IMG/VR virus record: IMGVR_UViG_3300020438_000029 | Location: 1-64,000 of that record | Source of the DNA: a virus | Length of the DNA: 64,000 nucleotides | Strand: one strand, 5' to 3' | Shown here: positions 12,299 through 41,345 of the stretch, piece by piece | How the letters are laid out: each line of letters begins with the position of its first letter | How positions within the stretch are numbered: the first letter of the stretch is position 1 | The notes under the pieces: model-generated | Database searches by the model: none | What the model was told of the DNA's origin: nothing | The model's input: the letters and a program-made list of their open reading frames with translations, nothing else | Program-made: the position numbers and the translations under genes

Positions 12299-12324
12299 AC
12301 AATTCTCCTTAAAGTATACTATGT

Positions 12325-12353: not shown

Positions 12354-12359
12354 GTGTTT

Positions 12360-13118: not shown

Positions 13119-13134
13119 AGTTTGTCTCCACTAG

Positions 13135-13142
13135 TATTTATG
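13135..13142 (-). promoter_or_regulatory. Late promoter motif CATAAATA (gp13)
   Basis: The minus strand reads CATAAATA 16 nt upstream of the gp13 ATG. Its outer base is shared with the plus-strand motif at 13142-13149, so two late promoters face outward from one point. Confidence 0.6.
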
Positions 13143-13149
13143 CTAAATA
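13142..13149 (+). promoter_or_regulatory. Late promoter motif GCTAAATA, 5 nt before gp14 ATG
   Basis: The plus strand reads GCTAAATA ending 5 nt before the ATG at 13155. No Shine-Dalgarno lies between them or upstream, so the gp14 message is predicted to be leaderless. Confidence 0.55.
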
Positions 13150-13154
13150 TACAT

Positions 13155-15745: not shown

Positions 15746-15753
15746 CTATATGT

Positions 15754-16194: not shown

Positions 16195-16212
16195 TACAAA
16201 AGAAAGTATAAT
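16184..16212 (+). promoter_or_regulatory. Perfect consensus sigma70 promoter for the heptose cassette
   Basis: TTGACA at 16184-16189 and TATAAT at 16207-16212 are separated by 17 nt, a 12/12 match to the bacterial consensus. Six bases follow before the hldE ATG at 16219, so the first base of the ATG is the predicted +1. The -35 box lies in the last codons of the NUDIX gene. Confidence 0.9.
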
Positions 16213-16218
16213 AAGACT

Positions 16219-17358: not shown

Positions 17359-18173
17359 GAATATTAATAACTGGATATAAAGGATTTATTGGAAGAAATC
17401 TAGCAATGTATTTGCAGCGTCAAGGACATGATGTAGAAGGATGGGAATGGCAACCTGGTATCATTCCTAGTACAGAAGACTACGATTGGTGTATACATTT
17501 AGGTGCAATTAGTTCAACTACTTTTACTGATGTAAATCAAATACTAGAACAAAATTTTGAATTTAGTATTAGGCTTGCACAAGTGTGTGAAAACTTTGGT
17601 ACTAATTTACAATATGCATCTAGTGCAAGTGTATACGGACCTACTACACATTTTACCGAAGATGGTCCTTTATTGCCGCAAAGCCCATATGCATGGTCAA
17701 AATATTTGTTTGATAGATATATTACACAATACAAGGACGAATTCGGTATCTTAGTGCAAGGCTTCCGTTACTTTAATGTGTATGGAGAAGGCGAAGAACA
17801 CAAAGGTGATCAAGCAAGTCCTTATACTAAATTTGCATATCAAGCTAAAGACAACGGTGTAATTAAATTATTTGAAGATAGTAATAACTATCTTAGAGAT
17901 TTTGTATGTGTAGAAGACATATGTAAAGTACACGAACTAATGTTAAATGTAGATGCTACAGACATTTACAATGTAGGCACAGGACGCCCTGTAAGTTTTG
18001 AAACAGTAGCACAATCTATTGTTAACAAACACGGCGGTGACATTGAATATATTCCAATGCCAGAAAATTTAAAGTCGCAATACCAAAGTTATACATGTGC
18101 TAATATAGATAAATTAAATTCTGTAATAGACATGAATTGGACAAATATAGAGGATTATATTAATGGAAAGTGA
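17355..18173 (+). CDS. hldD: HldD-like ADP-glycero-manno-heptose 6-epimerase
   Basis: A short-chain dehydrogenase/reductase that converts ADP-D-glycero- to ADP-L-glycero-beta-D-manno-heptose. The Rossmann motif TGYKGFIG gives G7, G10 and G13. The catalytic YxxxK is Y112 and K116. Several features are specific to HldD rather than to general sugar epimerases: AISSTT near residue 51, GFRYFNVYGEGEEHKG, KLFEDSNNYLRDFVCVEDI, NVGTGRPVSFETVA and IEYIPMPENLKSQYQ near the C-terminus. At 272 residues it is somewhat shorter than E. coli HldD (310). It overlaps hldE by 4 bp and the cupin gene by 11 bp, so the cassette is one translationally coupled unit. Confidence 0.9.
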   Translation: MRILITGYKGFIGRNLAMYLQRQGHDVEGWEWQPGIIPSTEDYDWCIHLGAISSTTFTDVNQILEQNFEFSIRLAQVCENFGTNLQYASSASVYGPTTHFTEDGPLLPQSPYAWSKYLFDRYITQYKDEFGILVQGFRYFNVYGEGEEHKGDQASPYTKFAYQAKDNGVIKLFEDSNNYLRDFVCVEDICKVHELMLNVDATDIYNVGTGRPVSFETVAQSIVNKHGGDIEYIPMPENLKSQYQSYTCANIDKLNSVIDMNWTNIEDYINGK

Positions 18174-18567
18174 AACTACTCGGTTAAACGGTGTTGTAGA
18201 AAAAGGTTGGGGCTACGAATTAATTTGGGCAACTAATGACAAGTATTGCGGAAAACTTATGGTGTTTCAAAAAGCAGGCGCTCAATTTAGTATGCATTTT
18301 CATCAAGAAAAAGACGAAACTTGGTTTGTAAATAACGGTAGATTTTTAGTAAAATGGATTGACACTAAAACTGCTAAATGGAACGAGCAAGAGCTTAAAG
18401 CAGGTGATACATGGCATAATCCTCCATTGCAGCCGCACCAACTAATTGCTATTACATCAGGAAGTAGTATTACAGAAGTAAGCACACCTGATAGTGTTGA
18501 AGATAATTACCGAGTTGCCCCAGGTGACAGTCAAAGAGAAAACAATGAGCCGGTTCCAAAAAGCTAG
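18163..18567 (+). CDS. Cupin-fold protein, possible sugar-phosphate isomerase/epimerase
   Basis: A 134-residue single cupin. The first cupin motif HFHQEKDETW supplies metal ligands H45, H47 and E52, and H92 in NPPLQPHQL supplies the fourth. The GWGYELIW start and HFHxxKxET pattern resemble type II mannose-6-phosphate isomerases and related sugar cupins. It lies between hldD and gmhB with overlaps on both sides. It could fill a missing isomerisation step or modify the heptose; GmhA, the usual sedoheptulose-7-phosphate isomerase, is absent from this window and has an unrelated (SIS) fold. The substrate is not known. Confidence 0.83.
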   Translation: MESETTRLNGVVEKGWGYELIWATNDKYCGKLMVFQKAGAQFSMHFHQEKDETWFVNNGRFLVKWIDTKTAKWNEQELKAGDTWHNPPLQPHQLIAITSGSSITEVSTPDSVEDNYRVAPGDSQRENNEPVPKS

Positions 18568-19144
18568 TACACAACAGTTAAATAGATATAACAAATATGT
18601 TGTTGGTCTTGATCGCGACGGCGTAATTAATAAAGATATTGGAACATATGTTACTAGTGTTAACGATTTTATTCCTATAGAAAAAAGTTTAGAAGCGGTA
18701 GCACTAATACGATCTAAGGGTCACCCAATTGTAATTATTACAAATCAAGGTGGTATACAAAAAGGCATTGTTACAGAAACACAGCTAAATGATATTCATA
18801 AACACATGTTTGATCTTTTAGGAAAAGCAGGATGCCCAAGTATTGACGGACTATATTATAGCTCTAGTAGTTTAAAACAAGATTTCTATGCTAAGCCAAA
18901 CATAGGAATGTTTGAACGTGCCCAAGATGAAATACCTAATATAAAATTTTCTAAAGGCATATATATTGGCGACAAACTTAGCGATCTAAAAGCAGCAGAT
19001 AAAATAGGCGCAAAGCCTATACTAGTGCGTACCGGACATGGATTAGAAACTGAAAAATTGCTTAATACTCGTTTTACTTATAACAAACTTAAAAAGAAAA
19101 CTCGAATATTTGATAGTCTTTGGGACGTTGCACAAGCCCTTTAG
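18545..19144 (+). CDS. gmhB: GmhB-like HAD phosphatase (heptose 1,7-bisphosphate 7-phosphatase)
   Basis: A 199-residue HAD-superfamily phosphatase of the histidinol-phosphatase/GmhB class. Motif I is DRDGVIN with nucleophile D23 and acid D25. Motif II is ITNQGGIQKG (residues 65-74), motif III is the K117-P118-N119 segment, and motif IV is GDKLSD with D143 and D147. The zinc-binding Cys/His loop found in E. coli GmhB is absent: residues 105-116 contain only Ser, Lys, Gln and Asp. Zinc-free GmhB relatives exist, so activity is still plausible. The start at 18545 is the last in-frame ATG before motif I and overlaps the cupin gene by 23 bp. The stop overlaps the stop of the giant minus-strand gene. 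Confidence 0.85.
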   Translation: MSRFQKASTQQLNRYNKYVVGLDRDGVINKDIGTYVTSVNDFIPIEKSLEAVALIRSKGHPIVIITNQGGIQKGIVTETQLNDIHKHMFDLLGKAGCPSIDGLYYSSSSLKQDFYAKPNIGMFERAQDEIPNIKFSKGIYIGDKLSDLKAADKIGAKPILVRTGHGLETEKLLNTRFTYNKLKKKTRIFDSLWDVAQAL

Positions 19145-22100
19145 GCTTGCGCTTCACCCCATTTAAGAATCAAGTTAGCTTCAACATTTGTACCGCCCAC
19201 TTTATACACATTAATAGCAAGTACGTCTGGACCATTTGGGAATGTTCCTCGTCCACCTAGCGTAGTATTTGTAAGCTCTTTCAATTCACTAAAGTCAACA
19301 GTTGCACGTTCTCCTGGTGTTGCAATAAAGGAGAACACAGTTTCACCTGGTTGTGCATAGGGTGGTTGAACGAATGTAAATTCTACTGTACCACTACCTG
19401 CTGTTAGTGTTCCACTAAACGAATTGTTAAACTGTACTTCATAAAATTGAGTAGATCCGTGTTGTTTAGCAGTTACACTGTTAACCTGTGTGTTAGCAGG
19501 GAAAGTTACTGAGCCGCCGTTACTTAGATTTGTACCTTGCTTAACTCCTGCAGTATCAATTTCTGATTTACTAAGATATGCATAGTTTCTGCCTACAAGT
19601 GATTCATTAAACGTAAATGTCTGCTGTTGATTATCAATGGTGTTGCTCACGCCTCGGCTTATTCTTATTGCAACATAGCTAGTGTACACGTTAACACTAG
19701 TAACAGTAGTATCAGATCTAATATTAGTGCCTGTTACTGTTGATCCAACAACAATTGGTCCGTTAGCTTCATACATGCTTGTAGAGTAATATAGTGTAGT
19801 ATTCCTCCTCCAAGTTGGATAATCATCATTATTCATAGTAGCCACTACACTACCAAGTGCTGTAGCTGTTGCTGTAGTAGCAGCCTCGCCTGTTGACCAT
19901 ACAACAGAACCACCAGCAGCAACTTGTGCAAAGCTAGGCTGACCACCTTGCGCAACACCGCTCAATGTTGTCCAACCAACATCGTTTGGATTGATTGGAT
20001 AGTTTTGTGGGTTAAGTACACCTTCAACAACAATACCGCCAGTTATTGGTGCATTACTATTTCCAGTATCAACACCGTCTGATGTAACTTCAAGACCTTG
20101 TAGCAACAATTGTGCTCTGTTTAGTAGTTCTCTTTCACCTAAGTCTCCAATAATTGCGTTTGAAACACTGGGTGCTAGTCTAATCATAAACGCTGTTTGT
20201 TTAGTTGTACTAACATCAATTCCTGGTTCTGCATATGAGAAGATATATCCTCTATCTTCATCAAATCCGCCGTCTGTTAAGAACGCCGAACCCCAGTGAC
20301 TAATTAAAGGAGTAATTGTATTACTAATTAATATTACGCCAGTTCTTGCATCATGTGGGACAGCTCCGCCTGCGCTATAAGTACGTTCGGCGCCTGCTTG
20401 GAAGTTAGTTAATGTTGTTCCTCTTGTTAAACCAGTTAGATGATTTGAAGAACGTCCACTAAACGTAATAATTTCATTATCAATATAAACAGTGCCGTAT
20501 TCTGGGAAGAAACTTCCGTCCACTAGTTCTAAAGTAGTTGCACTTGCATCCAAATCTGCTGCTAGTTTACCCGGAGGTCCTTCGTTAGTAACTTCATAAC
20601 GCACAGGCAAGTTACCTGAACGCATAAATGCTTCTGTGTTTACGTTTGAGTTACGCATTCTGTGACAGAATATAAAGTTACCATCTTGTCCGCGAAGCAT
20701 AAAGTCAATAAATCCAGCACCATACCAACTGTATTGAATACCAATCATTTGCATTTTAGCAATATCAATGTCGTATCCACTAGGACCATTGCCATCCAAT
20801 GTGTCTAGATTAAAGTCAGCTGACTTAACTTTCTTATCAATAACTAGATTCATTTTTGCACCAGTAGCAGGAGTTACACCTCTAAAGTCAGGCGTAACAG
20901 TACAAGATGTTTGGCTAGTAACATTTGTTACCACGTGTGTCATACCTTTGATAATAACTCTATCACCTGCTGTTAACTGATCGCGGAATCTTGTGTTTGT
21001 TCCTGTTACTAGATTCCCGTCAACTTCAATTGCAATAGTTCCAGCTACCTGCTGAGTACCAGTACGTTGATTAACACTAACGTTAGTACCGTCGAATTCC
21101 CAAAAAATGCCGTTTTGATCATCAAAGATGCCTGAACGTACAGTTGCGCCGTGCCATGCAACAACACTCATTTGTGCGCCAAAACCAATGTTGGCTTCTT
21201 GTTTAAATGCTCCAATAGTATCTTCAACTACGGCTGTATTTCTTCTTTTCTTAAGTTCTGCAAGAGTATCTGCAATTCTTGTAGATAACGATTCAGCTTG
21301 TGAAACACCGTCTAAATAATTTATAAGATCAGTAGTATCATCTACAGTGAAGCTTCCTGAGTTGTTAATATCGCCCCACGCATATCCATCTGGTGCAGTC
21401 TCGTTGATAAAGAAGTTGTGTATGTCATGAGTGTTAGTTCCACTTGCTGCTTCATCAAATGCAACAACTAGTGGTGACGTATTAGTCGGCGAGTTTAAAA
21501 CAATTTCTGTAGTGTCGCCTAATCTGCGTTTTGATCTAACTGTAAATGAACGTTCACTTAATACTTCTTCAACTGTGTAATCAAATCCTGGAGGTACTTC
21601 CGGATTAACTCCTGAATTATATCCCGGTGTTTCTACACCTAACAATCTAATTATGCCGCCTGCTTGTACGCCGTGATCGTTATCATCTGTTGTAATAGTA
21701 ATTAACGAATTAAGTTCTGTTCCAGCTGCTGATATAGTTGAAAGATCGTAACTTGGAGCAAATAGCGCACCAGTTGTATACATAATACCCTTACCTGATT
21801 GGTAACGAATATATTTTTTACTTTGACGTATTGCTTGTGCGCCATGCTGTGGACCGCCTGTTCCTAACTGCACACCGCCATCAAATGGTCTATGAACAAA
21901 GAAGCTGTCTGGCCTTGCATATAGTACGCCATTGATCGGATCAGTAGCAGCATCTGTTGTAATTGTTCCTGCTGCTCTAGCAGTATATCTTAGTTTATCT
22001 ATTGCCGGAATATTAGTAACAAGGAATGCTCCGTCTGCAAGATCATGATTGTTTGTTCCGTCATCTGTCGATGTTGCTGTAATAAACGTATCACCTGGCA

Positions 22101-25100
22101 CAAGTCCGTGTGCAGCAGGGAATGTAACTTCTAATGTTGCAATAGCACTAAACGTAATTGCTGTATTTGCAGCCATCTGTCCTGTTGTTGCTTCTGTCAT
22201 TGTAAATGTTGATATTAACGGAACTTGTGTGCCTGGATTTGCCGGCTGTTGTGTTGTTGTAAATGTTGTTAATGCATTATTGTTAAGTGTATCGACACCT
22301 GTAACTGTGATAGTAATATCATTGTCGCCATTTACACCGTCCATATCACTACCATTAAGTGTTAATACATCACCTATTTCATATTGTGTTCCGCCGTCGC
22401 CGTCTATTTCTTGGTAGCCACCGTTTATTCGCTGAACACTAAATTCTGCACCAGAACCCGGTCTATTAACATTTGTTAGTAATAAACCTAAATAAGTTTC
22501 TGTTCCACTTGTTGCTGTACCTGCACTACTAAATCCTGTGATTGCGCCAGTACCACTTACACTTGTTATTGTAATAGTAATGTCATTTGCTGGTGTTTGA
22601 CCTTGTAGTTCTGTACCTAATATTTTAAGTTCTTGATCTACAAAGAAGTTTAATCCGCCAACGTTAAGTGTAACTGCATAGTTATTAGGAGTAAGAGCAA
22701 TGTCAAACAATGCTCCAGTACCTGCAAGGATTGTTCCTGTTAGTGGTGTAACAATCTGTTGGTTAGTTGCGGTACCTGATATGCTTGCAGCTGTAATATC
22801 TCCACTGCCACCAACGTTATCAATTGTAATTGTTGCATCGTTTGTAGGAGATGCGCCGTTTAAATTTGTACCTGATACTAGCAGTGTATCACCGATACTA
22901 TATCCAGTGCCCGGTACTGTAACAATCACAGCATAAGACGTGCCTTGCATTCTAACATCTACTTCAGCAGTGGTTCCAGCACTAGACGTTGTAAAACTTA
23001 CATTAGGAAATAACACATCTGCGTTTGGAGCAGTGCCGCTCTCAATTACTACAGTATTAATATTTCCGGTTTCGCCAGAGACAGCAGTTTGGATTCCTGT
23101 AACTTTTATAATTAAATCGTTAGCAGGACTTGTGCCTCCTGGAAACTGATCACCTGATATTAATAATCTATCGTTAACTACGAAGTCTTCTGAAACATTT
23201 GGCGGTGATCCTTCAACACCAACGCTTGTAAATGCGTTATTAGCCATAGTTACATTAAACTGGGGCGGATTAATACCAATGCCTCCAGCTAATGGTGCCG
23301 CAATACCAGTATAATTTTCTGTACCTGCAACTGCCGTACCTGTAAGTGTTACTGTTGCAATGCCGCCAGTCGCTGTAATACTAGCAACTGTACCAAACAT
23401 ATCATTAGTGGCAGTTACGCCGCCAAGTTGAGTACCGTCTATTAGAAATTTATCACCTACTTCATAATTAAGACCTGCTAGGTCAATTGCTGATAGAGAA
23501 TAGGATCCGCCGGATCTTTGTATATTAAGCAGTGCGCCGGAACCAGCAGGCTGAACTGTTGTTGGAGTTAATATTGGATATGTTTTTGTATTTGATACAA
23601 GTGATGAAGTTAATCCACTGCTTAATGAAACTGTACTTCCTACAACATTGTTAATAAATGTTGCTACACCGTCGCCTCTATCTAATGCTAGGTTTGGAAC
23701 AACACCGGTTGCATCAAATAATTGTATATCTGTATCTCCAATATTAGCATTGGATCCAATATTTAATGTTAAGTACTCGCCGCCGCCTGCACTGTTATCA
23801 ATAATATTAGTAACCTGTGAACCTACTGGAATAAGAGGACTTATTAAAGGTGAGCCAACTTCAGGTGAATTACCGTCAAACGGAATAGTATTTGCTCCGG
23901 TTTGGACTATTAGCTCAGACACCATTGCACCCGAAGAACCGTTACTTAATACATCAAATTCTGCGCCGTCAATTCCTGCTCCGGTATAAAAACCACCTTT
24001 TCTTAGTTGAGTATAACCGGCTGCTAATTGCTCACCATCTGCTGTTCCTACTTTTGATTTAGCATAGTACTGGAAACTTAAATTAGTTGGTACACTAATA
24101 ATAACAAACGAACCTTCAGCTCGTGCTGCGCCTGCAATAGATGTTTCAAGAGCTTTAATTGTAATAGGTGTACCTACTTCAAATCCGTGTGCTGATACTG
24201 TTGTAACTGTAATTAATGAAGCACCAATACCATCTGTTCCGTCACTTGCATCAGTTTCAACACTTAATACCTGTGTATCTGTTCCTGGAATTTCGTATAC
24301 ACTTGGATATCCACGCATCATAGAAATTGCAGACCATTTAGTAGGCTGTAAACCGTACTCAAAGTCAGCATCAAGCATACTTAATGGAGGAGCAATACGC
24401 ATACGTTCAATTGCGTCTGTTCCAAAATCATATGGTCGTTGCGTTACTACACTTTTTCCATTTTCCATTTTTTCTACAAAAATTTGTAGATCGTCAGTTG
24501 ATGAATGTGTAGTTGTGTTGTATGTTAAATTAATAGTAGTTACAGCATCAGTTGTCTGTAGATACTTTGGAAAATCTTCGTCTGCGCCGTGATCTTTAAT
24601 AACACATTCTGCACCGGCTTCGGGGTCACTAAAATTATAAATTATTTCATTTTTGGATGTGTTAGTGACAAGCAGTAATTCGTCTGAAGTATATCTTCCT
24701 TGGATTTTGATATTGCCTAAACCTGTTGTTTCTGCTGTAGGAAGGCTAGTAATTCCGTTAGTAAGAACATCAACAGTGTTTTGTGAAAGCGTTACAGCTC
24801 GCATACTTGCGCCAGCAATCACTGCTCCTGTTATAGCACTTGAAAATGTATGTAATGAAGTATCAGAACTTATACCTACATTCATTGTAATAGATGTTGC
24901 AGTGACACCAGTAATAGTAATTGGTTTATTAAAATATGGATCGCGCTGTAATGCATTAGGAACGCCTGCTCTGCGTGGATAAGGATGTAATGTAGCATTA
25001 CTGTCTAATGCACAAGTAAACGTTATTCCATCCGGTCTAATAATAATTTTATCATCAGCTTGAAGCGTGTGCGTACCAATCTCTAAAGTCATAATGCCTG

Positions 25101-29898: not shown

Positions 29899-30498
29899 AT
29901 GGATAAAAATTTTAGAGAATCTATCCAATGGCTTAGCGTTCCAATACATTTTTGGGAGTTTAGTTTTGAGGATACCGACGAGTACTCTGTAGAAGAATTA
30001 CACAATGATGTAGAGCGTGTTATTAAAGAAGTAGGCGATGCTAGAAATAAAGAAACAAATGTAAAGGCTACTATAATGACCGATTGGCTTATGACCGATC
30101 ACAAGCCATTTAAATATATTTGCGATCATGTCGAATCTTTAATACAGCAATGGCACAAAGAAAAAAGTGACCTAGATTTAAAAACATTTATGACAACATG
30201 TTGGGGATCAATATATAATCGAGGAGACTACAGTGAACTACATGCGCATGTGCCTGCTTTGTATAGTTGGGTGTATTATGTAAAAGTAGACGACGATGCT
30301 GCTCCGCTTCATTTCCCACACGAACCCGGAATGTATTATAAGCCTAAATCTGGGGATGGGATAATTTTTCCCGGTTGGTTATCACACCAAGTACAACAAC
30401 ATCAAAGCGATAATGAAAGAATTATTGTTGTAGGAAACGTTGAAGGAACTGGTGCAATTAGTTACCCTCAACGTTCATTTACAGATGTTAATTTGTAA
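29899..30498 (+). CDS. Second 2-oxoglutarate/Fe(II)-dependent oxygenase
   Basis: A 199-residue protein of the same broad fold. The metal site is probably H115/H117 in YNRGDYSELHAHVPALYSWVYYV and H163 in IIFPGWLSHQV, with R174 in DNERIIVVGNV for 2-oxoglutarate. The W-G-S-x-Y-N-R-G-D approach is typical of 2OG-FeII_Oxy_5. It differs enough from the first oxygenase to have another substrate. The Shine-Dalgarno AGGAAAC lies just upstream. Its last 11 bp overlap the 3' end of the opposing carbamoyltransferase gene. Confidence 0.83.
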   Translation: MDKNFRESIQWLSVPIHFWEFSFEDTDEYSVEELHNDVERVIKEVGDARNKETNVKATIMTDWLMTDHKPFKYICDHVESLIQQWHKEKSDLDLKTFMTTCWGSIYNRGDYSELHAHVPALYSWVYYVKVDDDAAPLHFPHEPGMYYKPKSGDGIIFPGWLSHQVQQHQSDNERIIVVGNVEGTGAISYPQRSFTDVNL

Positions 30499-32323
30499 CT
30501 GTAATTAGTTTTCCGTATTCAGGAAGATACAAATATTCAATATCACAACTTGCTAGTGTACGTATTGCATCATCAAGTGTTTCTACAAGAGGTTCACCAC
30601 CTAAGTTAAAACTTGTATTAAAGATAATTGGACAACCTGTTGCATCCTTAAATGCTTTAATAATATCATAGTAATGTTGATTCTGTTCTCTAGTAACAGT
30701 TTGAATACGACACGTTCCGTCGACATGAATAATCGCTGGAATCTTTTCTTCAATGCCTGGCTGGCAATTTACAGCATACATCATACTAGGGCTATCTTCC
30801 ATGCCACGAAGATCAAACCATTCGTGTACATCATCTTGTAAAATACTGCCTGCAAATGGACGGAAGTATTCCCTATGTTTTACACTATTAACAAAGTCTT
30901 TGCCGTTAGGGTCTGTTGGATCATACAAAATACTTCTATTACCTAAAGCACGTGGTCCTGCTTCAGAACGTCCTTGAAATAAGCTAACAATGTTTTTTGA
31001 TGTAATTAGTTTTATAACATCTTCATTTGTTGCATCACTAACTGTTGCATTATATTTTTGTGCTGTTTCTTCTATTTCATCATCAGTATAATTGTATTCA
31101 AATCCAAGATATAATCCGTCAGTTGAATTATCGACTTTATCAAATTCTCCTTCAAGATCTTTGTATACTAACATTGCTGCCCCTATAGAAGTTCCAGCAT
31201 CATTTGACACTGGCTCAACATAGATGTTGATACCTTCATCTTTAAGTGCTTCTAAGTAGTGATAGTTTGCAACACAATTTAATCCATAACCTCCACTTAT
31301 AACCACATTTTTATTACCAGATAGATCAACAGCTTTTCTAATTAGTCTTACGATTTCGTCTTGCGATTGTGTTTGTACAGCATATGCAAGATCTCTTCTA
31401 TTTTCTAAAAATGTTAAATTTTCTACAGTTGGCATTTCTTCTTCATTCTGTGTAAATTCATATGCATCAGCATTTATATATGCACCGTTTGGATATGACG
31501 GAACGACAAAGTTTCTATTAGTTAGATTAAATGAAGTATGGCCAAACAGTTTAGGAATATTAGGATTTTCCTTGCCATAAGGAAATAATCCCATTGTTTT
31601 GCCTGCTTCAATAAAGTGCCAGCCACAAAAGTATGTTACTGCTTCATATGTTTTTACAATTCCTGCCGTATCTGAAATTACACACTCAAAAGTATGTCCT
31701 TCTGGGTCCATAAATGCCTCACCCGAAGATTCTTCAACTGTTGACAATGCTGAAGAAGCAGTAGCAACATGCTTATATAATGTACGAATATCATTTGGGT
31801 AGTTACAAGAAAAAATTGATTCAGTTTCCCAACCTGGTACTGATGGCATTCCAGTGCCATTGTGATCTTGTTTAGCAACCGCCATTACAGATCCTGCACC
31901 ATCTACAATTACTGCAACAGCAGATTCAAATCCACTTCTATAAAACGCACATGCAGCATGTAGTTTATGATGTATTTTACCTAAGTTAATTACCTGAGGA
32001 TGGCTTCCGTCAAAATTATTTTGACTATCATCCCTAGAAATTAGTCCTGTCTTCCTAGCAAAAGCAGTATATATATCCTCCCCTGAAAAATCGGCTTGTA
32101 TTGTTTTTAAGTCTTCTGTTGTATGACAAATAACAAGATATTCTAATGTATCAGTATATTCTAATATTTTCATCATAGCTGTTGTTGGAGTGCCGTCGTA
32201 CTTACGTCTTGATAAGCGTTCTTCTTCTATGGCAAAAACTACTTCACCGTTTTTTAAAAGACATACACTTGCATTATGTCCACGTGTTATGCCTGCAATC
32301 CAAATATCTCTTTTGTTCGTCAT
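30488..32323 (-). CDS. NodU/CmcH-family O-carbamoyltransferase
   Basis: These enzymes transfer a carbamoyl group from carbamoyl phosphate, through carbamoyl-adenylate, to a hydroxyl, usually of a sugar. The 611 residues show both domains. The N-terminal Kae1/ASKHA-like domain has GITRGHNASVCLLKNG and EEERLSRRKYDG at the start, the metal-binding HHKLHAACAFYRSGF segment near residue 115 and GGYGLNCVANY near 345. The C-terminal domain has QGRSEAGPRALGNRSIL, HREYFRPFAGSIL and FNTSFNLGGEP. Length is normal for the family. The start overlaps the GT9 stop (TAATG), so it is coupled to a glycosyltransferase, which suggests carbamoylation of a glycan. Confidence 0.93.
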   Translation of the reverse strand: MTNKRDIWIAGITRGHNASVCLLKNGEVVFAIEEERLSRRKYDGTPTTAMMKILEYTDTLEYLVICHTTEDLKTIQADFSGEDIYTAFARKTGLISRDDSQNNFDGSHPQVINLGKIHHKLHAACAFYRSGFESAVAVIVDGAGSVMAVAKQDHNGTGMPSVPGWETESIFSCNYPNDIRTLYKHVATASSALSTVEESSGEAFMDPEGHTFECVISDTAGIVKTYEAVTYFCGWHFIEAGKTMGLFPYGKENPNIPKLFGHTSFNLTNRNFVVPSYPNGAYINADAYEFTQNEEEMPTVENLTFLENRRDLAYAVQTQSQDEIVRLIRKAVDLSGNKNVVISGGYGLNCVANYHYLEALKDEGINIYVEPVSNDAGTSIGAAMLVYKDLEGEFDKVDNSTDGLYLGFEYNYTDDEIEETAQKYNATVSDATNEDVIKLITSKNIVSLFQGRSEAGPRALGNRSILYDPTDPNGKDFVNSVKHREYFRPFAGSILQDDVHEWFDLRGMEDSPSMMYAVNCQPGIEEKIPAIIHVDGTCRIQTVTREQNQHYYDIIKAFKDATGCPIIFNTSFNLGGEPLVETLDDAIRTLASCDIEYLYLPEYGKLITVTN

Positions 32324-33249
32324 TAAGTTTTGTCCTCAATATCTTTAATTATTTTTTTAATAATATCAGCAAGTTCTTTGTCATTAAAGTCCATTGTGCT
32401 ATCATTTTTTCTATTTGCTATATCTGCATCAACGCCTTGTTCACACAACCTAATTGGAAAATATTCAATTTTCGTATTTGGTTTTTGAAGTATCTGAAAA
32501 TGATCTTTATATGTAACATTTTCTGCAAATGTACTTCCTAATATTACTGTACCAGGTTTATTAAATGCTTTTGCCATATGTTGACCAACACTGTCACATC
32601 CAATAAAATAATCACATCCTTCAATAATGCCTGCCCATTGCCGCAGTCCTGTTTGTATTTTAAAGGTCGTATCATCTACTTCGTTGTTCTCTCCCATGTA
32701 GATTACATTATATTTCTTATGTAGTTCTTTTATAATTGTGTTATAATCTTTTACACTTAATGATCTGCTCATTGGATCAATCATTTCATTTGCAATAGGA
32801 GCTGGTGTGGCAGATCTGCCAAATGGTTGTATTACTATTGTCTTTAATTTATTTTGTTGTTTAGAAGCATTCTCTAATGCATCTAATGCATTTAATTCTT
32901 CTTGTTTATTTAAACAAATTTTAATATTTGGTAAATCGCTATGATCGTCAGTTTCGTTAATAATATGATCAAATGCTTCAGTTAGGTGTCTTGTTTGATT
33001 ATAGTAACCGTGATCTTGATAAGGTTCAGGCTGTATTAAAATATTAGGCTGAATAATATCTTTAAATACGCCTTTATGTTCAGGGGTAAAAGTTAAATCT
33101 ACAAGCTCAGGAATACCTACAAAAAAATCTAAACCGCTTCCGGATAGTATATAAAAGTTAGGGCCGTGTTTTTTGTGATACTTTAATAATGCTGGGATGG
33201 AGCATAGTACTCGACCTGCTCCTCCATTGATACTAAATACTTTTTTCAT
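32323..33249 (-). CDS. Glycosyltransferase family 9-like (heptosyltransferase-type)
   Basis: A 308-residue protein with a GT-B type layout. The N-terminal strand SINGGAGRVLCSIPALLKYHKKHG resembles the GxGDxLxxxPxxxxLK opening of heptosyltransferases. The C-terminal domain has a TIVIQPFGR nucleotide-side strand and CDYFIGCDSVGQHMAKAFNKPGTVILG, the D-S-x-x-x-H-x-A-x-A pattern of GT9. It ends with a KDxELADIIKKII helix. GT9 enzymes use ADP-heptose in LPS core synthesis, which fits the hldE-hldD-gmhB cassette elsewhere in this window. Its Shine-Dalgarno AGGAAG lies inside a 16-bp inverted repeat. Confidence 0.8.
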   Translation of the reverse strand: MKKVFSINGGAGRVLCSIPALLKYHKKHGPNFYILSGSGLDFFVGIPELVDLTFTPEHKGVFKDIIQPNILIQPEPYQDHGYYNQTRHLTEAFDHIINETDDHSDLPNIKICLNKQEELNALDALENASKQQNKLKTIVIQPFGRSATPAPIANEMIDPMSRSLSVKDYNTIIKELHKKYNVIYMGENNEVDDTTFKIQTGLRQWAGIIEGCDYFIGCDSVGQHMAKAFNKPGTVILGSTFAENVTYKDHFQILQKPNTKIEYFPIRLCEQGVDADIANRKNDSTMDFNDKELADIIKKIIKDIEDKT

Positions 33250-33255
33250 GAAAAT

Positions 33256-33314
33256 GCTTCCTAGCTAACAGTTAGTTATATAATTAATTATATGTTGTCT
33301 GTTAGCTAGGAAGC
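33256..33314 (-). promoter_or_regulatory. 16-bp perfect inverted repeat enclosing the GT9 Shine-Dalgarno
   Basis: Arms at 33256-33271 and 33299-33314 are perfectly complementary over 16 bp. The 27-nt loop contains a second palindrome, ATATAATTAATTATAT. On the minus-strand RNA the 3' arm carries AGGAAG, the only Shine-Dalgarno for the GT9 ATG at 33249. Only about four U residues follow, so it is a poor terminator and a good candidate translational switch. Confidence 0.85.
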
Positions 33315-33325
33315 TAAATGTGGCT

Positions 33326-33333
33326 AATTTATA
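33326..33333 (-). promoter_or_regulatory. Candidate late promoter TATAAATT
   Basis: The minus strand reads TATAAATT, 7 of 8 to the T4 consensus, overlapping the stop of the 233-residue gene. Transcription from it would include the whole inverted repeat upstream of GT9. Confidence 0.35.
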
Positions 33334-34030
33334 CGCCTAACACTGTTTTCATATGGGCGATCCAAGCTGTTTGATCTGCTTCGACAGTTTCCATATGTGC
33401 AAGGTAAGATGCTTTGTCTTCGTCTGGTAAAACAATTTCAGATAATGTATGTTCTTGATCAGTTCCTTCTAAGAACGTAATCGGTTCTGGAAATTCAACA
33501 ACATCCGGATCATCATTTACATCTGCTTTTACTCCAGCAATTACACGCTTCGTATCAGCTAATACTTCTTCATAAAATGCTAAATTTTCAGCATTAATTT
33601 CTGGAATTTCTAATAGCTCTCTTATTGGGGTATAAACTGGCTTTGGAAAAGTTTTTGCTATTTTTTTACGTGCTTCTAACGATCCGTTACGTGCAGCAGC
33701 TTCTAAATTAGCATCTGCGTCTGAATTGTCCGGTGTATAATCCGTTGCATCCTGTTCAGCTTTAATTTGTGCTCTAATTGCTTCTTCTTTTGCAACTGCA
33801 GCAGCATCACTCTCTTCTCGATCTGCTGCTAACAATGGTCCAATATCATCGTTATAATCGTCACTTCCCGGCACATAAAATTTAGAATTATGCCAATAGT
33901 TTCCAGCAACACATAGTTCATCATCTGATTCTAACCAAGTGTTATTGTCGTTATTAACTAATAAATTCTCTGATTCAGTAGCAATTACTACGGCAATGCC
34001 TATTTTATTTGTTTTTGTTCTAAAATACAT
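33329..34030 (-). CDS. Probable fibre-associated or fibre-assembly protein
   Basis: A 233-residue acidic protein starting MYFRTKTNKIG. It has an N-terminal beta region, a long Ala/Glu/Asp-rich helical middle (about residues 65-130) and a helical C-terminus. It lies 12 bp after the glycine/cysteine-rich adhesin gene, the position commonly taken by tail-fibre assembly chaperones or fibre caps. No catalytic motif is seen. The Shine-Dalgarno is AAGGAG. The chaperone idea is positional inference only. Confidence 0.65.
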   Translation of the reverse strand: MYFRTKTNKIGIAVVIATESENLLVNNDNNTWLESDDELCVAGNYWHNSKFYVPGSDDYNDDIGPLLAADREESDAAAVAKEEAIRAQIKAEQDATDYTPDNSDADANLEAAARNGSLEARKKIAKTFPKPVYTPIRELLEIPEINAENLAFYEEVLADTKRVIAGVKADVNDDPDVVEFPEPITFLEGTDQEHTLSEIVLPDEDKASYLAHMETVEADQTAWIAHMKTVLGV

Positions 34031-34042
34031 TAATGTTACTCC

Positions 34043-35554
34043 TTAGTATACTACTACAACAGCTCCGGATCCGCCAGTCGGGTAAAGTCTGTTACCGCCA
34101 CCGCCAGCGCCTGCTGCTTCTTTTGATGTTGCTCCAAAACCAAATTTAAAGTCTGCTACATTAGTTCCGTCTCTAGATTTCATTGTTGATAATGGAATAA
34201 TACTGTTACTTGACGGTCTATTAGAATCTATATCCTTAGAATAACCTAATGAATAATATAGAGCGCCACCGCCGCCTCCACCGTAAAGGTTTTCCATAGC
34301 AGCACATGCACCACATGCACCACTGCCGTAAATAAAGCTAAAGTGATCTTGGCCAAATCCAATATAACACACAGTTGTATCAGAAGTTCCTGAGGCACTG
34401 CCGCCTCCGCCTGCTGATGGTGTTAACAATGTTGCATCACTTACACCATTATATCCGTCGGCATGCGAACTACCTGCTTCTGAACCAATGCCTACCGGAC
34501 AGTTTGTTACTTGGAAAGTATCGTCGTTTGATGGATACATTTGTCCACCGGCTCCGCCGCCTGCTGACTTAGCAAAGTTAGTTACACCGGACGAGCTGCC
34601 GCCGCCGCCGCCGCTGACACACAAGTATACGCCGTTACACATTCTTTGGCAAATACACTGTGACCACGGCATGTTATAGTAACATCTTCCGCCGAACACG
34701 TTATGATATGTTACCATACATAGGCAGTTAAAATTACTCTCGCCGCCCCAGTAGAAGCAACAACCGCATTGATTACTGTTTATTCCCTGAGTTGGTTTTA
34801 AATATGCTCGTGTACAAGTGCAATTACATCTGCAGCCGCCGAATGTATAATCATAACCACGGGCTGTCCAATATGTTTGAGTACAGCCTTCACCAACGCT
34901 ACTAGATACCGTACCAGTGTCGGTATAATTAGATGTAAGTGATCCGTCAACTTCACTGTCTTCTCTAAAGTACGGAATAAACACGCCTGCGCCGCCAGTT
35001 CTATTAATATCACCGCCTGCTGCTGTTCCGCCTGCGTTAAAGTAACCATTAATACAATTTCTATAACCACAAACTGGAAGATCAAATCCTAAACTAACTT
35101 CATTATCGAGGGTGTTATCTCTTGCAGTTGAATTCGATGTACAATTCCATGATATTGTTGTATCTGTTGCGTTATTTGCTGTTACTGTAGTGCCTCCAAT
35201 TGATGCACTACTTGCTGACAACCCGCCTACAGAGCCAATGTTAATAGTCATTGACGAACCAGGTGCTACGCCATCAAATGTTTTTTCTGCATAGCCACCG
35301 CCGGCTCCTACAAGGTGCCCTACAAAGTTTAAACAGTATTCAGTTCCTGGAGTTGCTACTCCTGAACAACAAGCTGAGCTACTTTCAAAACAGAATTCTG
35401 TATTTCTATAGTTACTACCTGCACCAATAACAAAAACTTTAGCTTTGCTTACCCCTGCCGGGACTGACCATGATGATGTTCCTGGTGATGTAAAAACTTC
35501 GGCTCTTGTATAGCCTTGTTCAACACCACTACTTCCTGATATAAATCTTCCCAT
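34043..35554 (-). CDS. Glycine-rich, cysteine-rich adhesin candidate
   Basis: A 503-residue protein. It begins MGRFISGSSGVEQG and then has WSVPAGVSKAKVFVIGAG, a segment seen at the head of glycine-rich phage fibre-tip domains. Poly-Gly runs occur at SGGGGGSSSG, AGGGGSASG and YGGGGGGALYY, as in polyglycine-helix receptor-binding tips such as the phage S16 gp38 adhesin. I count 26 cysteines, 15 of them between about residues 220 and 315 (34610-34895), which is unusual for a protein assembled in the cytoplasm. No signal peptide is present. It is followed 12 bp later by the 233-residue gene. A receptor-binding role is inferred from architecture. Confidence 0.75.
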   Translation of the reverse strand: MGRFISGSSGVEQGYTRAEVFTSPGTSSWSVPAGVSKAKVFVIGAGSNYRNTEFCFESSSACCSGVATPGTEYCLNFVGHLVGAGGGYAEKTFDGVAPGSSMTINIGSVGGLSASSASIGGTTVTANNATDTTISWNCTSNSTARDNTLDNEVSLGFDLPVCGYRNCINGYFNAGGTAAGGDINRTGGAGVFIPYFREDSEVDGSLTSNYTDTGTVSSSVGEGCTQTYWTARGYDYTFGGCRCNCTCTRAYLKPTQGINSNQCGCCFYWGGESNFNCLCMVTYHNVFGGRCYYNMPWSQCICQRMCNGVYLCVSGGGGGSSSGVTNFAKSAGGGAGGQMYPSNDDTFQVTNCPVGIGSEAGSSHADGYNGVSDATLLTPSAGGGGSASGTSDTTVCYIGFGQDHFSFIYGSGACGACAAMENLYGGGGGGALYYSLGYSKDIDSNRPSSNSIIPLSTMKSRDGTNVADFKFGFGATSKEAAGAGGGGNRLYPTGGSGAVVVVY

Positions 35555-35897: not shown

Positions 35898-38800
35898 TTA
35901 TCTCTGTAAAAAGTAGTTTAGTGCTAACGGACTACCAGAAATACCACCGGTAAAATTCGCTCTGCTTGTTATATTTATCGTACCATCAGTTACGTGATTA
36001 ATAGTATTTAGTTGTATTTTCACATTACCTGCTTGTATACTGTTAACATTTAGATTACTGCCACCGCCACCAATTTGTGACTGGATGTAAGTTCTAATTG
36101 CTTTTTGTGTTGGCACAATGCTATCGCTATTTGCAGCAAATGTGCCGTCTGTGCTAAATTCGTTAATAGCAGTATTTGAGCTTCCTAGTGTAATAACACC
36201 AAGTTGCAATTCTTGTAGACCTGCTAAGTTAAACGCATCAGCATTAAGTGTTGATTTACCTGTTGACTGTTCAACACTAAACAGTTCACCAACTCTAAAG
36301 TTGCCGTCTTGGTCAGTACTTGTGTAGAACACTCTGCCGCCGCCGCCTTCTTTTGTTTCGTCAGCTGCATCAGGTGCTGTACTTGGAGTACCTGGATAGT
36401 TAGTATCTGTAAAGTTACCAGTGCCGATATCTAAGAAATCGTGTCCTGTTAAACGCACCTGTGAATAACGTATTCTTACTTCTGCTGCTACAGCATGTTC
36501 TGGTGCATCTGTAATTGTAACTTCTGGTGACACTTGAAGTGTAGCAGTATAAGGTCCTGTACCTAGTAAGTTTGTTACATTAACAAGTTTATAATAGTTA
36601 CTATCTCCTGCAAATGTTACGTTAGCACCTTCTTGTGGTATTTCTGTTAAACCTTCTAAGTTTACAAATTTACCATTTTGATAGATATCTCCATAACCGT
36701 CGCCAGTTACAAAACCATCTGCACTTTCCCAGTCAACGCCTCTGTTTTGGAAACTAGGTTGTGCAAGTGCGCCATCGCCTACTCTAACAGTCCATGTTGA
36801 GTCTACTGTATTACTTGGATCAGTTAGTGTTACTGTTGGTGGTGTTGCATATCCTGAACCTGGTTCAATAACCCTAATATTAGAAATTGCTCCACTTGCA
36901 GATGCTGCTCTTAGTATAGCTTGTGTAAAGTTTCCACTTGATGCGCCTACTGCATTTGCATCTTCACAACCGTATGCCCAAGTGCCAGTACCGTATCCGA
37001 CTGCTTGCCATAAGTTTTGTGATGGCATAACTTGTGCTGTCCAAACAATTCCGTCTGGTGATGTAGCTGCTTTTGTAGTTCCGCCGGTGTCTTTTGCAAC
37101 ACTTAGGAATGTTCCTTGACCGTACTTAACTGTACTCCAGTCTGCACTTGAACTCATAGTTGTTGCTGTCCAGTTAACACCGTCAAAACTAATAGCTGCT
37201 TCGTCTGTGCCAATTGCTGTTGCAACAAAACGTCCATTACCGTATGCAATTGCACTATATGTTCCTGCACCTAATGTTGGAAGTGCTCCTGCACTCCATG
37301 TTGTACCATCATTCAACGAGTAAGAAGTTACACCATTTGCTGCTATTGCTAACCATGTATTTGCTGCTGAGCTATACACTACATCTAAAAATGCATCGCT
37401 GCCAGCAACTGAACCGCCTACAGTATAGGTTGTACCGTCATATACGCCTGTTACTCTTGTAGTATTATCGATATGAACAATTACATCTTTAGCTATTTCT
37501 AATACATCTGCTGTATTTCCGCCAAGTCCATAACCTGCCCAAGATGCTCCGTCATCTGTTGAAAATGCAAAAACATTTCCTGAATGAGTTGCAGCAAAGT
37601 AGGCAGTTCCGCCTATTTTGCCGCCTTTAATCTTACCTAGGTTATTAGTGCTGATTCCTCCTCCTGCTGACCATGCTATTCCGTCTGTTGATGTATCAAC
37701 AACTGCGCTTCCAGCAGTTACCGTTGCAAAAACATTTCCGTTATATGCAATGTCATCAACTGCTCTTGAACTACTATAGTTTGTATTTCCTGTAATAGTT
37801 TGGGTTGGCGCAGCTACAACAACTCTAGGTTCAACACTGTATGTTGATACTGCGTTTGGAGCAACAATAGTTGTTCCAGGAATCAAATGATCCCAGCCGG
37901 CTGTACCAGTGCTTGGTTTTAATATTGTAGCAACTTTTGTTCCTGAATTGTATGTGTCAACATATCCATATTGTCCAGCACCGTTACCTGTCTTAATGAA
38001 TATCATCATTCCGACATATGCTGAAGATGGTGCAGTTTCTGAACCAGCTAATGTAATTTGTGAAGTAGTACCTGCCTGTGCAGTGTTAGCTGAAGCTCTG
38101 TAATCTTCGCCTTCTGTTAATAATCTAACTTCAAAAATTCCGTTATCTCTAATTTCATCACCTACTAATACTTGATCATATCCAATACCGCTAAACGTGT
38201 ATGTATTATTTTCTGTAGTGTAATTAGTACCTGCATTATTATATTCTAATGCTAATATTTCAGTAGCATCAGTATATACTCTGCCAATTTGTGCTTCGTA
38301 ATATCTGTTGTTTACTGTAGCAGTTACAGCAGTTTCTGTATCATCTACACCTTCTGCTACTGATCCAAATGCACCATATGAGTTGTTACCGTTGGTAGCA
38401 CGAATCTTGCCGCCGTTTTCTGCAAGGTAGCCAATGTGGTTGTAGTATGTAAACACACTAACAAGTTCTGATCTACCTAAGTTTGTAACCCAATATCCAA
38501 TGCCATCGCTTAATACTTGTGTAAAGTCGTTAGCAACAATTGAATCATTTCCACCGTCGTGTAGTGCTCCGTCAACTTTAAGACCAATACATGCTGTTCC
38601 TAAAGAAGTTACGTTTTGTATATAAGGAGATCTACTTGCAATCCAAACTCTAGTATCTGCTGGACCCCATCCTGCGTCTAAACTTACATATGCTCCTGCA
38701 CTTGGACGCTTAGTACCGTATGCATTATCACTGCCCAATGTGCCTGTTAAGCCTGTTACTGTACAGTTTCTAATACCTGATGCGTCTCTTACATAGAACA

Positions 38801-41345
38801 TATCTTCTTCTACTGATCCAAGTACAGCGTTTACATAGTATCTACCAGCTAATAATGCTTTATAGTTACCAGTATAAATCAAATCGTATTTTACTGCATC
38901 TAAATATCTGTTTACATCTCTTGAACACTTAGCAATATCGTATGTATATGAAGGATATGTTGCTGCAATATATGCGTGGACTTCTGCTACTAAGAATGCT
39001 CTGTTTGCTTCAATACATTCTACAGCAAAAGTATAATCAGTATGAGTTTGCGGAGTGTTTGTACCAGCAATAACTGGAACAGTTGAATCTCCTGTTGCAC
39101 CATTGATACCGTAATCAATGTAGTCATAAACTTGCTGCATTATGTTTGCTGCCGCCGCGCCTGCTACTGCTGCGCCTGAAGGTCTTGTTGTTACTTGTGT
39201 CTCTGCATTTCCAGATGTTTTTGTAACTGAACCGTTTGTTGCAATATCGCTCATAATAGCCTGTAGTCTTGATATTGCATCTAAGCTATATGATACATCA
39301 CCCGAAGGTGTAATAGCTCCCATCGGTGCAATTCTAGTTGAACGTAGCTCATCGCCTATAATTGCACATCTTTCTGGAACAATCATTGGAAGTACTTCTT
39401 TAAACTCGCCTGTTTTAACAAACAACGAAGTATTAGGTTTAAGTTCTACAGGAATATCTGTAGGCACTGTTGCATCAAGTGCTGCTGTAATTATGTTAAT
39501 TAATCTAGTTAGTGTGAGTTGATCGCTAGGTAATTCTACCAATGTTGCGTCAATTTGTTGTGTAATTGGACTACCAACACTGTTTAGTGTTTGATAATTT
39601 GCTGCTGGTGCTGCATTACTAATAACAGCATCGACCACTTCTTCCATGTAGTCTAACGTTGCTGATAATTGTTGGTATTCATCTTGTATACTAGCAATTA
39701 ATGCACCACTATCAAAATAAGTTAGTGTAGCAGCTCTAGTTCTTGCATTGCCACCGTGTCCTAAGTCCCAAATAAGTGCATCAACAATTTGACCAATGTC
39801 TCTTGCACATTTTACTTTATCATCTTGAGTAAATCCATCCCAAATACTTCCGCCAGCAGCATTAGCAATTTGCCAATCTACCCACTCAGTTGCTTCTGCA
39901 GCAATAAAACTTCTATTAAGTTCTAGTAATTTTTGTGCGCCAGTACTGTTATGTCCAATATCAATTCTTTCTAAACCATAACGTACAGTTTTGAAAGGTT
40001 TATCTAATGTATATCCATAATCAATACTATCTGTACCATTATCAGCAACATAAAATACATTGTTGATAATACCAAAATCGGCCCATTCTAAGTTTGAATC
40101 ATTAACTTTTAATACTTGACCATCTGTACCAAGTGGTAATCTTGCAGGACCTGCTCCGGAGTAATAAACAATATCTCCGTCAGTTGTTAATACTGTAGTT
40201 TCAGCACCACCTACCATTTGGTTCCAATAAGAACCTACTAAATCTTGGTCTGGTCTGTTTTGTGTAACTGTTTCATCTGCTGTGTGTTCTGCAACACAAA
40301 CATAACTTGAGTTATCATATCTAACCAGGTCGCCAGCATCATAGTATGTTGCATCTGTCCAATCACCGTTCCATTCTTGACCTTGGTTTAAGCGATTCCA
40401 ATATGTATCATTAGGTGGACGGTTGCCAGTACTATCAGCTGTACACAAGTATGTGTAACCACCAACGCGGACAACGTCTCCCGTTTTATACGCAACGGCA
40501 TTGTCATAATCTCCAATAAATTTAAAGCCTGTTGAAAACACGTCCCAATCTGTTTGTGCTGTAGTTGTAGGAGTTGTGCCAGTATGATTTTCTACAGCAA
40601 CATACTGATAGCCGCCATAGTTTACAATATCGCCTCTTTGGTAAGCAGTAGAGTTACTCCATGTATCTTCAAATTCTAAACCTTCTACAAATTGTACCCA
40701 GTAAGCTGCGTCGGTTACAAATGCTGTTGAATCTGAAGTGTGTCCTTGTAGGCACAACCACAGTCCGCCGCCGCGTTTAACAACGTCATTTAACTTATAT
40801 CGTGTATCAGTTGCCCAATTATTTTTATAATCAAAACCTGTATTTAAACTATCCCAATTAACAACGTTTGCTTCTAAGCCTAAGGCTAAAGTAGCTGCAC
40901 TAGTATGGCCAGTAATACAACGATAAAGTCCAGCGCCGTACTTAACTAAATCACCAACTTTGTAATAAGTGTCGATAGCCCAACTTGATTTCCAATCAAA
41001 GGATGGCTGAGCAAATGTATCCCATTTAGATTGATCACTTTCAAGTAGTGCTTGCGACATGTGCCCAGTAGTACAAATATATACAGTTGAACCATATTTT
41101 ACAAGGTCATTTAATTCATACTGTGTACTAGCTTGCCAGTCACTTCTCCATTTTTGACCATCTGTCATTAGTTCCCATTTATTAGTTCCTAAATCTAGGT
41201 TAAAGTCTGATAAAGAAGTATGTCCGGTAACACATAGATATGTTTTACCGTTTACTAAAACTACGTCATCGACATAGTAAGTTGTAGAAGTTACCCAATT
41301 GTTTTTCCAAACAAATCTAATTCTACCTAATTTAAACTCAGCCAT
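35898..41345 (-). CDS. Modular fibre/virion protein with CBM-like repeats and an Asp-box beta-propeller (1815 residues)
   Basis: N-terminal region (residues about 10-355): seven repeats of a W-x(4)-T-x-Y-x(3)-D-x-V-x(3)-G-x-x-Y-x-C-x(3)-H-S/T type that resemble small carbohydrate-binding (CBM5/12-like) modules. Middle: two KCxRDxxxxxDAxxxDLxxxGN modules, then beta-helix-like segments (MFYVRDASGIRNCTV). Residues about 1193-1460 hold an inserted propeller with Asp-box motifs STDGIAW, STDDGASW, LNDGTTW, SFDGVNW and SPDGIVW. The C-terminus (RLTGHDFLDIGTG to NYFLQR) is shared with the 1493-residue paralogue. It has a late promoter GCTAAATA and a Shine-Dalgarno TTGGAG. Host attachment or appendage function is inferred. 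Confidence 0.85.
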   Translation of the reverse strand: MAEFKLGRIRFVWKNNWVTSTTYYVDDVVLVNGKTYLCVTGHTSLSDFNLDLGTNKWELMTDGQKWRSDWQASTQYELNDLVKYGSTVYICTTGHMSQALLESDQSKWDTFAQPSFDWKSSWAIDTYYKVGDLVKYGAGLYRCITGHTSAATLALGLEANVVNWDSLNTGFDYKNNWATDTRYKLNDVVKRGGGLWLCLQGHTSDSTAFVTDAAYWVQFVEGLEFEDTWSNSTAYQRGDIVNYGGYQYVAVENHTGTTPTTTAQTDWDVFSTGFKFIGDYDNAVAYKTGDVVRVGGYTYLCTADSTGNRPPNDTYWNRLNQGQEWNGDWTDATYYDAGDLVRYDNSSYVCVAEHTADETVTQNRPDQDLVGSYWNQMVGGAETTVLTTDGDIVYYSGAGPARLPLGTDGQVLKVNDSNLEWADFGIINNVFYVADNGTDSIDYGYTLDKPFKTVRYGLERIDIGHNSTGAQKLLELNRSFIAAEATEWVDWQIANAAGGSIWDGFTQDDKVKCARDIGQIVDALIWDLGHGGNARTRAATLTYFDSGALIASIQDEYQQLSATLDYMEEVVDAVISNAAPAANYQTLNSVGSPITQQIDATLVELPSDQLTLTRLINIITAALDATVPTDIPVELKPNTSLFVKTGEFKEVLPMIVPERCAIIGDELRSTRIAPMGAITPSGDVSYSLDAISRLQAIMSDIATNGSVTKTSGNAETQVTTRPSGAAVAGAAAANIMQQVYDYIDYGINGATGDSTVPVIAGTNTPQTHTDYTFAVECIEANRAFLVAEVHAYIAATYPSYTYDIAKCSRDVNRYLDAVKYDLIYTGNYKALLAGRYYVNAVLGSVEEDMFYVRDASGIRNCTVTGLTGTLGSDNAYGTKRPSAGAYVSLDAGWGPADTRVWIASRSPYIQNVTSLGTACIGLKVDGALHDGGNDSIVANDFTQVLSDGIGYWVTNLGRSELVSVFTYYNHIGYLAENGGKIRATNGNNSYGAFGSVAEGVDDTETAVTATVNNRYYEAQIGRVYTDATEILALEYNNAGTNYTTENNTYTFSGIGYDQVLVGDEIRDNGIFEVRLLTEGEDYRASANTAQAGTTSQITLAGSETAPSSAYVGMMIFIKTGNGAGQYGYVDTYNSGTKVATILKPSTGTAGWDHLIPGTTIVAPNAVSTYSVEPRVVVAAPTQTITGNTNYSSSRAVDDIAYNGNVFATVTAGSAVVDTSTDGIAWSAGGGISTNNLGKIKGGKIGGTAYFAATHSGNVFAFSTDDGASWAGYGLGGNTADVLEIAKDVIVHIDNTTRVTGVYDGTTYTVGGSVAGSDAFLDVVYSSAANTWLAIAANGVTSYSLNDGTTWSAGALPTLGAGTYSAIAYGNGRFVATAIGTDEAAISFDGVNWTATTMSSSADWSTVKYGQGTFLSVAKDTGGTTKAATSPDGIVWTAQVMPSQNLWQAVGYGTGTWAYGCEDANAVGASSGNFTQAILRAASASGAISNIRVIEPGSGYATPPTVTLTDPSNTVDSTWTVRVGDGALAQPSFQNRGVDWESADGFVTGDGYGDIYQNGKFVNLEGLTEIPQEGANVTFAGDSNYYKLVNVTNLLGTGPYTATLQVSPEVTITDAPEHAVAAEVRIRYSQVRLTGHDFLDIGTGNFTDTNYPGTPSTAPDAADETKEGGGGRVFYTSTDQDGNFRVGELFSVEQSTGKSTLNADAFNLAGLQELQLGVITLGSSNTAINEFSTDGTFAANSDSIVPTQKAIRTYIQSQIGGGGSNLNVNSIQAGNVKIQLNTINHVTDGTINITSRANFTGGISGSPLALNYFLQR
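36285..36335 (-). repeat. 51-bp identical block shared with 41775-41825 (copy 1)
   Basis: These 51 bases in the 1815-residue gene are identical to 41775-41825 in the neighbouring 1493-residue gene. The flanks are also similar, but they diverge. Confidence 0.85.
36965..37765 (-). other. Inserted Asp-box beta-propeller domain
   Basis: About 270 residues carrying at least five S-x-D-x-G-x-x-W motifs at 45-60 residue spacing. The flanking sequences, an EPRVVV strand before and IEPGSGY after, are nearly adjacent in the 1493-residue paralogue, so this is a clean domain insertion. Confidence 0.75.

Follow-up and report, generated by a model that had tools for sequence, protein, structure and literature searches.

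The window, a stretch of 64,000 nucleotides from IMG/VR record IMGVR_UViG_3300020438_000029, belongs to a 67-kb contig of a marine, T4-like tailed phage that encodes terminase, portal, major head, sheath and baseplate proteins and in which genes were called mechanically. On its minus strand, the gene for a GT9-fold glycosyltransferase of 308 amino acids (phrog_8954; 32323–33249), which is the putatively gated gene, is followed by that for a Nol-like carbamoyltransferase of 611 amino acids (30488–32323) whose start overlaps the GT9 stop. A tail-region gene on the same strand (233 amino acids; 33329–34030) ends 79 nt before GT9 and is the candidate source of read-through transcription. The match of the window protein to Pfam PF01075 (Glyco_transf_9) was weak (15.9 bits against a cut-off of 22), and a sequence search of solved structures with GT9 gave nothing useful. 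The AlphaFold model is confident (pLDDT 91.7), and a fold search with it returned GT9 structure 3tov as best match (Z 21.3) and heptosyltransferases I and II at Z 17–19, hence, as judged from the model, the GT9 label is right at the level of the fold.

The minus-strand leader of GT9 is 79 nt long and reads, 5′ to 3′, TAA (the stop of the upstream gene), ATTAGCCACATTTA, GCTTCCTAGCTAACAG, ACAACATATAATTAATTATATAACTAA, CTGTTAGCTAGGAAGC, ATTTTC and ATG. It holds a 16-bp inverted repeat (33256–33271 and 33299–33314) with arms that are 100% complementary and 27 nt apart. In the RNA, the 5′ arm is GCTTCCTAGCTAACAG (33299–33314, minus strand), which includes the anti-Shine-Dalgarno sequence TTCCT, the loop is ACAACATATAATTAATTATATAACTAA (33272–33298, minus strand) with an inner AT hairpin, and the 3′ arm is CTGTTAGCTAGGAAGC (33256–33271, minus strand). 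The Shine-Dalgarno (SD) sequence of GT9, AGGAAG (33257–33262, minus strand), lies entirely within the 3′ arm, and this AGGA(AG) is the only one in the leader, with no second SD between the stem and the ATG at 33249. The first-pass annotation had described a 16-bp repeat that hides this SD, AGGAAG as the only GT9 ribosome site and an AT palindrome in the loop, all of which are borne out. It had also coupled GT9 to the carbamoyltransferase, which the one-base overlap of the two genes (TAATG at 32323) makes plausible.

This stem is the longest perfect stem detected across the 67-kb record and the sole perfect stem of ≥10 bp near any gene start. Among 1000 dinucleotide shuffles of the leader the longest stem at the same place was 12 bp and none reached 16 bp. 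Folding energy is likewise extreme, with z-scores of −5.98 for the plus strand and −4.58 for the minus-strand transcript (none of 200 shuffles matched either value). Over 50 starts, the median probability of being unpaired at −15 to −7 is 0.56; GT9 has 0.001 and the next lowest start 0.147, which makes the GT9 start the most occluded of the record. Prediction further gives a probability of an unpaired SD of 0.00 in the long transcript and 0.81 in a transcript started within the loop; in some relatives the loop-started leader is predicted to be only partly open (0.11 in L035, 0.43 in L005). The 16-mer arm has a single site in the record, with no repeated copies, and its exact IMG/VR matches outside GT9 leaders lie in unrelated contexts, on which grounds a repeated mobile cassette was rejected.

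IMG/VR scans with GT9 yielded 115 distinct parsable leaders, and some more were read by hand. In the GT9 tree the window falls into a clade of nine rows (support 100/99) in which all nine carry the hairpin, with stems of 9–16 bp at the same place in the leader; none of the 13 rows of the sister clade has it. The hairpin label requires four changes on this tree, compared with 14.4 when labels are shuffled. Hairpin z-scores of the window-clade leaders (−3.1 to −8.6) are near the top of the 115, where L102, L150 and the terminator-bearing cyanophage leader L021 are also found; those of L154 and L152, from the second GT9 clade described below or its neighbours, are not clear. Seven stems are divergent in sequence, each with a perfect partner: GCTTCCTAGCTAACAG, AACCTATCTAACTA, AAACACCTAGT, ACACCTAGT, CCCCTTAATAGTA, AGTTGGTAAATCTA and ATCCCTAGTTG. 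Six arm types contain AGG; in their 8-pair SD core, 47 of 48 cells are paired, the exception belonging to L004/L009, and five of the eight pairs change type. Swapping arms between loci broke 13 cells on average, and 0.3% of swaps equalled the native pairing. The SD (AGG..) is within the 3′ arm in six of the seven divergent leaders; in L034 it lies just outside the main stem, yet is covered by an outer helix that extends it. What is kept in sequence across stems and loops is AGG/CCT and a −10-like element only. The leaders are not independent samples, a concern lessened by the tree and by the divergence of the stem sequences. Since nine leaders keep the stem in place while their sequences differ and complementarity stays, the hairpin is, on this comparison, under selection in the window clade. 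Two of its members, L033 and L034, encode a protein of 219–229 amino acids (MIPLTVVDNFY...) in place of the carbamoyltransferase 3′ of GT9, with GT9 and the hairpin retained.

The −10-like element of the window is TATAAT (33287–33292, minus strand), a sigma70-type hexamer in the loop at −43 from the ATG, a position conserved in relatives, from which a local transcript is predicted to start near 33280. No recognisable −35 accompanies it in the window, where the best sigma70 score is 6.2 with a 19-nt spacer, compared with 13.8 in L031 and L034. Each of these two leaders contains TTGACA-17-TATAAT without a mismatch, with all or most of the 5′ arm lying in the spacer. Such a match recurred in 6 and 10 of 20,000 shuffles, respectively, and in the 62-kb record of L034 the one in the GT9 leader is the only perfect match. 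The promoter of L033 is fair and the −10s of L005, L009 and L035 are weak. A −10-like [TCA]ATAA[TC] occurs at −45 to −33 in six of the seven divergent leaders (0.6 expected; 0 of 500 shuffles) and an exact TATAAT in three of the seven (0.14 expected). TATAAT is also found at −60 to −28 in 49 of the 115 GT9 leaders where 7 would be expected, hence GT9 genes often have their own promoter. By its motif class, the loop element is a sigma70-type −10 and not a T4-type late promoter.

Sigma70-type promoters precede other genes too, such as the dNMP-kinase-like gene of the window (named from sequence; 11738–12298, minus strand), which has TTGACA-17-TATACT directly upstream (12353); their placement is consistent with an early or middle class. 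In a relative, the start of the dNMP-kinase-like gene is strongly occluded by structure right after a TATAAT. The 357-kb record of L035 (IMGVR_UViG_3300044701_000569) contains, at 11663–23296, a row of codirectional perfect TTGACA..TATAAT promoters, and in several of them an inverted repeat crosses the spacer (e.g. TTGACACGAGTCCAAACTCGTGTATAAT); this stretch resembles an early region with a shared operator. In the GT9 leaders of L020, L062, L092, L105 and L109, a sigma70 −10 is fused into a late octamer, TATAATAAATA (e.g. TTGCAC-17-TATAATAAATA), as if both holoenzymes could read the gene from nearly one start.

The T4-type late promoter motif of this phage is, by its distribution, ATAAATA, which marks the structural-gene strand: it occurs 22 times on the minus strand of the record, where the structural genes lie, and once on the plus strand. 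ATAATTA and ATAACTA, unlike ATAAATA, have no consistent strand bias and were rejected as variant late promoters. ATAAATA is absent from all nine window-clade leaders, including the loop of the window itself. The nearest copy upstream lies 2.7 kb before GT9 on the same strand (35972–35978), inside the 3′ end of an open reading frame of 1815 amino acids (35898–41345), and its distance to GT9 is nearly equal in four related records. It probably serves as promoter for a small tail operon whose transcripts continue into GT9. In nine of nine window-clade members the tail-region gene upstream points the same way as GT9, and it always comes from the same family, so within this clade the stem and the upstream gene are inseparable. 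With this late motif and a codirectional tail-region gene before GT9, late transcripts are expected to read through into it.

A distant second GT9 clade, 45–47% identical to the GT9 of the window, has SD hairpins of another kind. Here five leaders (L135, L150, L166, L167 and L169) carry a late octamer, TATAAATA or CATAAATA, that overlaps the 5′ arm and loop (around 2415–2500), as in L135, ATCAACCCTATAAATAGTTTTATATTATTATAGGGTTGAATTTTTATG. In L135, L150, L166 and L169 no ATAAATA other than that of the hairpin occurs on either strand within about 5.9 kb. Read from sequence, this is the arrangement of T4 gene e, and the second clade has reached the same gating with another promoter class; as the same kind of gene uses a late promoter there, promoter class is not fixed. 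L102 has a further, independent SD-covering hairpin before GT9 (around 2430–2500; ATCTCCTCTA/TAGAGGAGAT). Within it lies an inner stem, and no clear promoter was seen in its loop.

The reading that we favour, with moderate confidence, is that the hairpin locks read-through messages and that messages started in its loop from a sigma70-type promoter express GT9 and the carbamoyltransferase. The inverted repeat would thus act as a translational lock against read-through transcription. When late transcripts of the tail operon enter the leader, the 16-bp stem would fold and bury the GT9 SD, and in members where a U-run follows the stem transcripts may also terminate. From a sigma70-type promoter of early or middle class with its −10 in the loop, the message would instead begin past the 5′ arm and be unable to form the stem, so that GT9 would be translated and the carbamoyltransferase with it by coupling. 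Both enzymes would then be made from their own promoter, and late read-through would yield neither, the opposite of the order in T4 e, soc and I-TevI. Activity of the window promoter, its timing and the effect on translation are all predicted here from motif and fold. SD gating combined with an internal start is preferred because it accounts jointly for the conservation of the stem, the position of the SD and the promoter-like loop.

The first-pass annotation had likewise proposed that the SD is hidden in read-through transcripts and that transcription starts inside the loop. Comparison supports both points, through the covarying stems conserved in relatives and through the −10-like sequences in their leaders. 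It had gone on to assign the window the logic of T4 e and soc, in which long early messages are silent and late ones start past the first arm. Its principle stands, and the second GT9 clade has precisely the T4 form; for the window phage the promoter class is probably wrong, ATAAATA being missing and the relatives having sigma70-type promoters. For T4 polarity to hold here, TATAATTA in the loop would have to be a variant late promoter. It differs from TATAAATA by one letter, GT9 sits among late-strand genes, and the second clade places exactly TATAAATA or CATAAATA within its SD hairpins. This reading is nonetheless unlikely, given a strong strand bias for ATAAATA and no consistent one for ATAATTA or ATAACTA, perfect sigma70 promoters as the best ones at this spot in the clade, and ATAAATA in none of its nine leaders. 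Polarity in the window clade is probably reversed relative to T4 e and soc, because the best promoters of relatives at this place match the sigma70 type perfectly and late tail genes precede GT9; it is the least certain step of our reading and is taken from motif class.

The most credible of the alternatives, though still improbable, is that the hairpin serves the tail operon as an intrinsic terminator or attenuator, its overlap with the SD being a by-product of short spacing. Its position between two transcription units would suit this, and in several leaders a stable stem is followed by U-rich sequence (TTTTTTC in L005, ATTTTTTATG in L035, long T-runs in L150 and L166). However, the ATTTTC tail of the window is weak, loops of 13–36 nt are unlike those of ordinary terminators, and L034 has no U-run at all, its stem extending over the SD instead. 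The SD is covered in every member, although a place outside the stem would be possible. A terminator scan of 32300–34300 found none, a weak test given that it allowed loops of 3–8 nt only and the loop here has 27. Termination may add to gating in members with a U-run, and fails to explain L034 or the constant position of the SD. Hairpins between the early genes of T7 are cut by RNase III, and a similar processing site could separate the tail and GT9 messages and free the SD. A perfect 16-bp duplex with an inner AT stem would fit such a site; we hold it to be very unlikely, as L007, L031 and L035 have stems of 9–11 bp, short for RNase III, what is conserved centres on SD pairing, and the promoter-like loop element would be left unexplained. 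SD sequestration by itself would suit any opening signal, hence a switch that a ligand, a protein, a small RNA or temperature would open, in place of bypass by an internal start, was considered as well. This has very little to commend it, since beyond AGG/CCT and the −10-like element stem and loop are not conserved in sequence as a binding site would be, and no Rfam family scored above threshold; a known RNA family was rejected, the sub-threshold matches being due to chance. The loop is AT-rich and palindromic, as a DNA-level cruciform without a role in RNA might be. Such a cruciform, or chance, is the least credible explanation of all, with 0 of 1000 shuffles reaching the stem, compensatory change maintaining it in a clade of nine and recurrence in at least two other lineages; shuffles, the tree and compensatory change led to the rejection of a chance repeat as such.

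Known phage leaders of this type are those of T4 e, soc, 49, I-TevI/II/III and segB and of Aeh1 mobE, where a helix in the long transcript sequesters the SD or AUG, the promoter’s own transcript is without the 5′ strand of the helix, and most of the promoters are of the T4-type late class (PMC3014915, PMC2988022). All genes then known to be regulated in this way were late genes on early or middle polycistrons (PMC2988022), hence the reversed case would be new; a limited literature search found no other phage sigma70 promoter within a hairpin, which is no proof of absence. Like the T4 e, soc and I-TevI leaders, that of the window is predicted to sequester its SD fully in the long transcript. 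Unlike them, the window clade is without the T4-type late promoter TATAAATA and has a sigma70-type loop element, and its gene is a glycosyltransferase within a late-strand block. The late promoter of the T4 leaders is found in the five hairpin leaders of the second GT9 clade, whose layout corresponds to T4 gene e as described in PMC3014915.

Read-through protection is also known from mobile elements. Transposase genes of IS10 and IS50 are protected in a similar manner. In the case of the IS200 transposase, a stem-loop in incoming transcripts occludes the ribosome site and protects against impinging transcription (PMC3196728). By prediction, the stem of the window likewise occludes a ribosome site and the transcript started locally is without one arm; the window differs in having no insertion sequence, transposase or terminal repeats, and in gating a GT9-fold gene of phage metabolism or decoration. 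The PeSL cassettes of T4-type phages consist of an early promoter and a stem-loop between genes. The window clade similarly pairs an early-type promoter with an intergenic stem-loop; unlike in PeSL cassettes, the SD is sequestered in the stem, the promoter sits within the structure, and each record has a single such element. The marine T4-like phages S-CAM3, S-SSM7 and P-SSM2 have the same phrog_8954/GT9 and Nol-like carbamoyltransferase pair in the same order. These three cyanophage leaders are without an SD-covering hairpin; in S-CAM3 a plain terminator stands in its place, along with a late-like motif.

Within the GT9 family the hairpin stays constant and promoter class varies, which makes the family a natural comparison. 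The leader of the window suggests that the timing of GT9 and carbamoyltransferase, as glycan-modifying enzymes, matters to marine T4-like phages. A promoter −10 in a loop together with an SD in the 3′ arm provides a signature with which other phage genomes can be searched. A wider proposal, evenly balanced between holding and failing, is that in a reversed-polarity leader an early or middle sigma70-type promoter inside an SD-sequestering hairpin expresses a phage gene that sits within the late tail region, and massive late read-through is silenced at the level of translation. The hairpin would have evolved at least three times in the GT9 family, one lineage using early-type promoters and another late ones, as a reusable gating module that chooses which promoter counts. 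Known phage leaders silence late genes on early messages, whereas that of the window appears to silence a gene of early or middle type on late messages.
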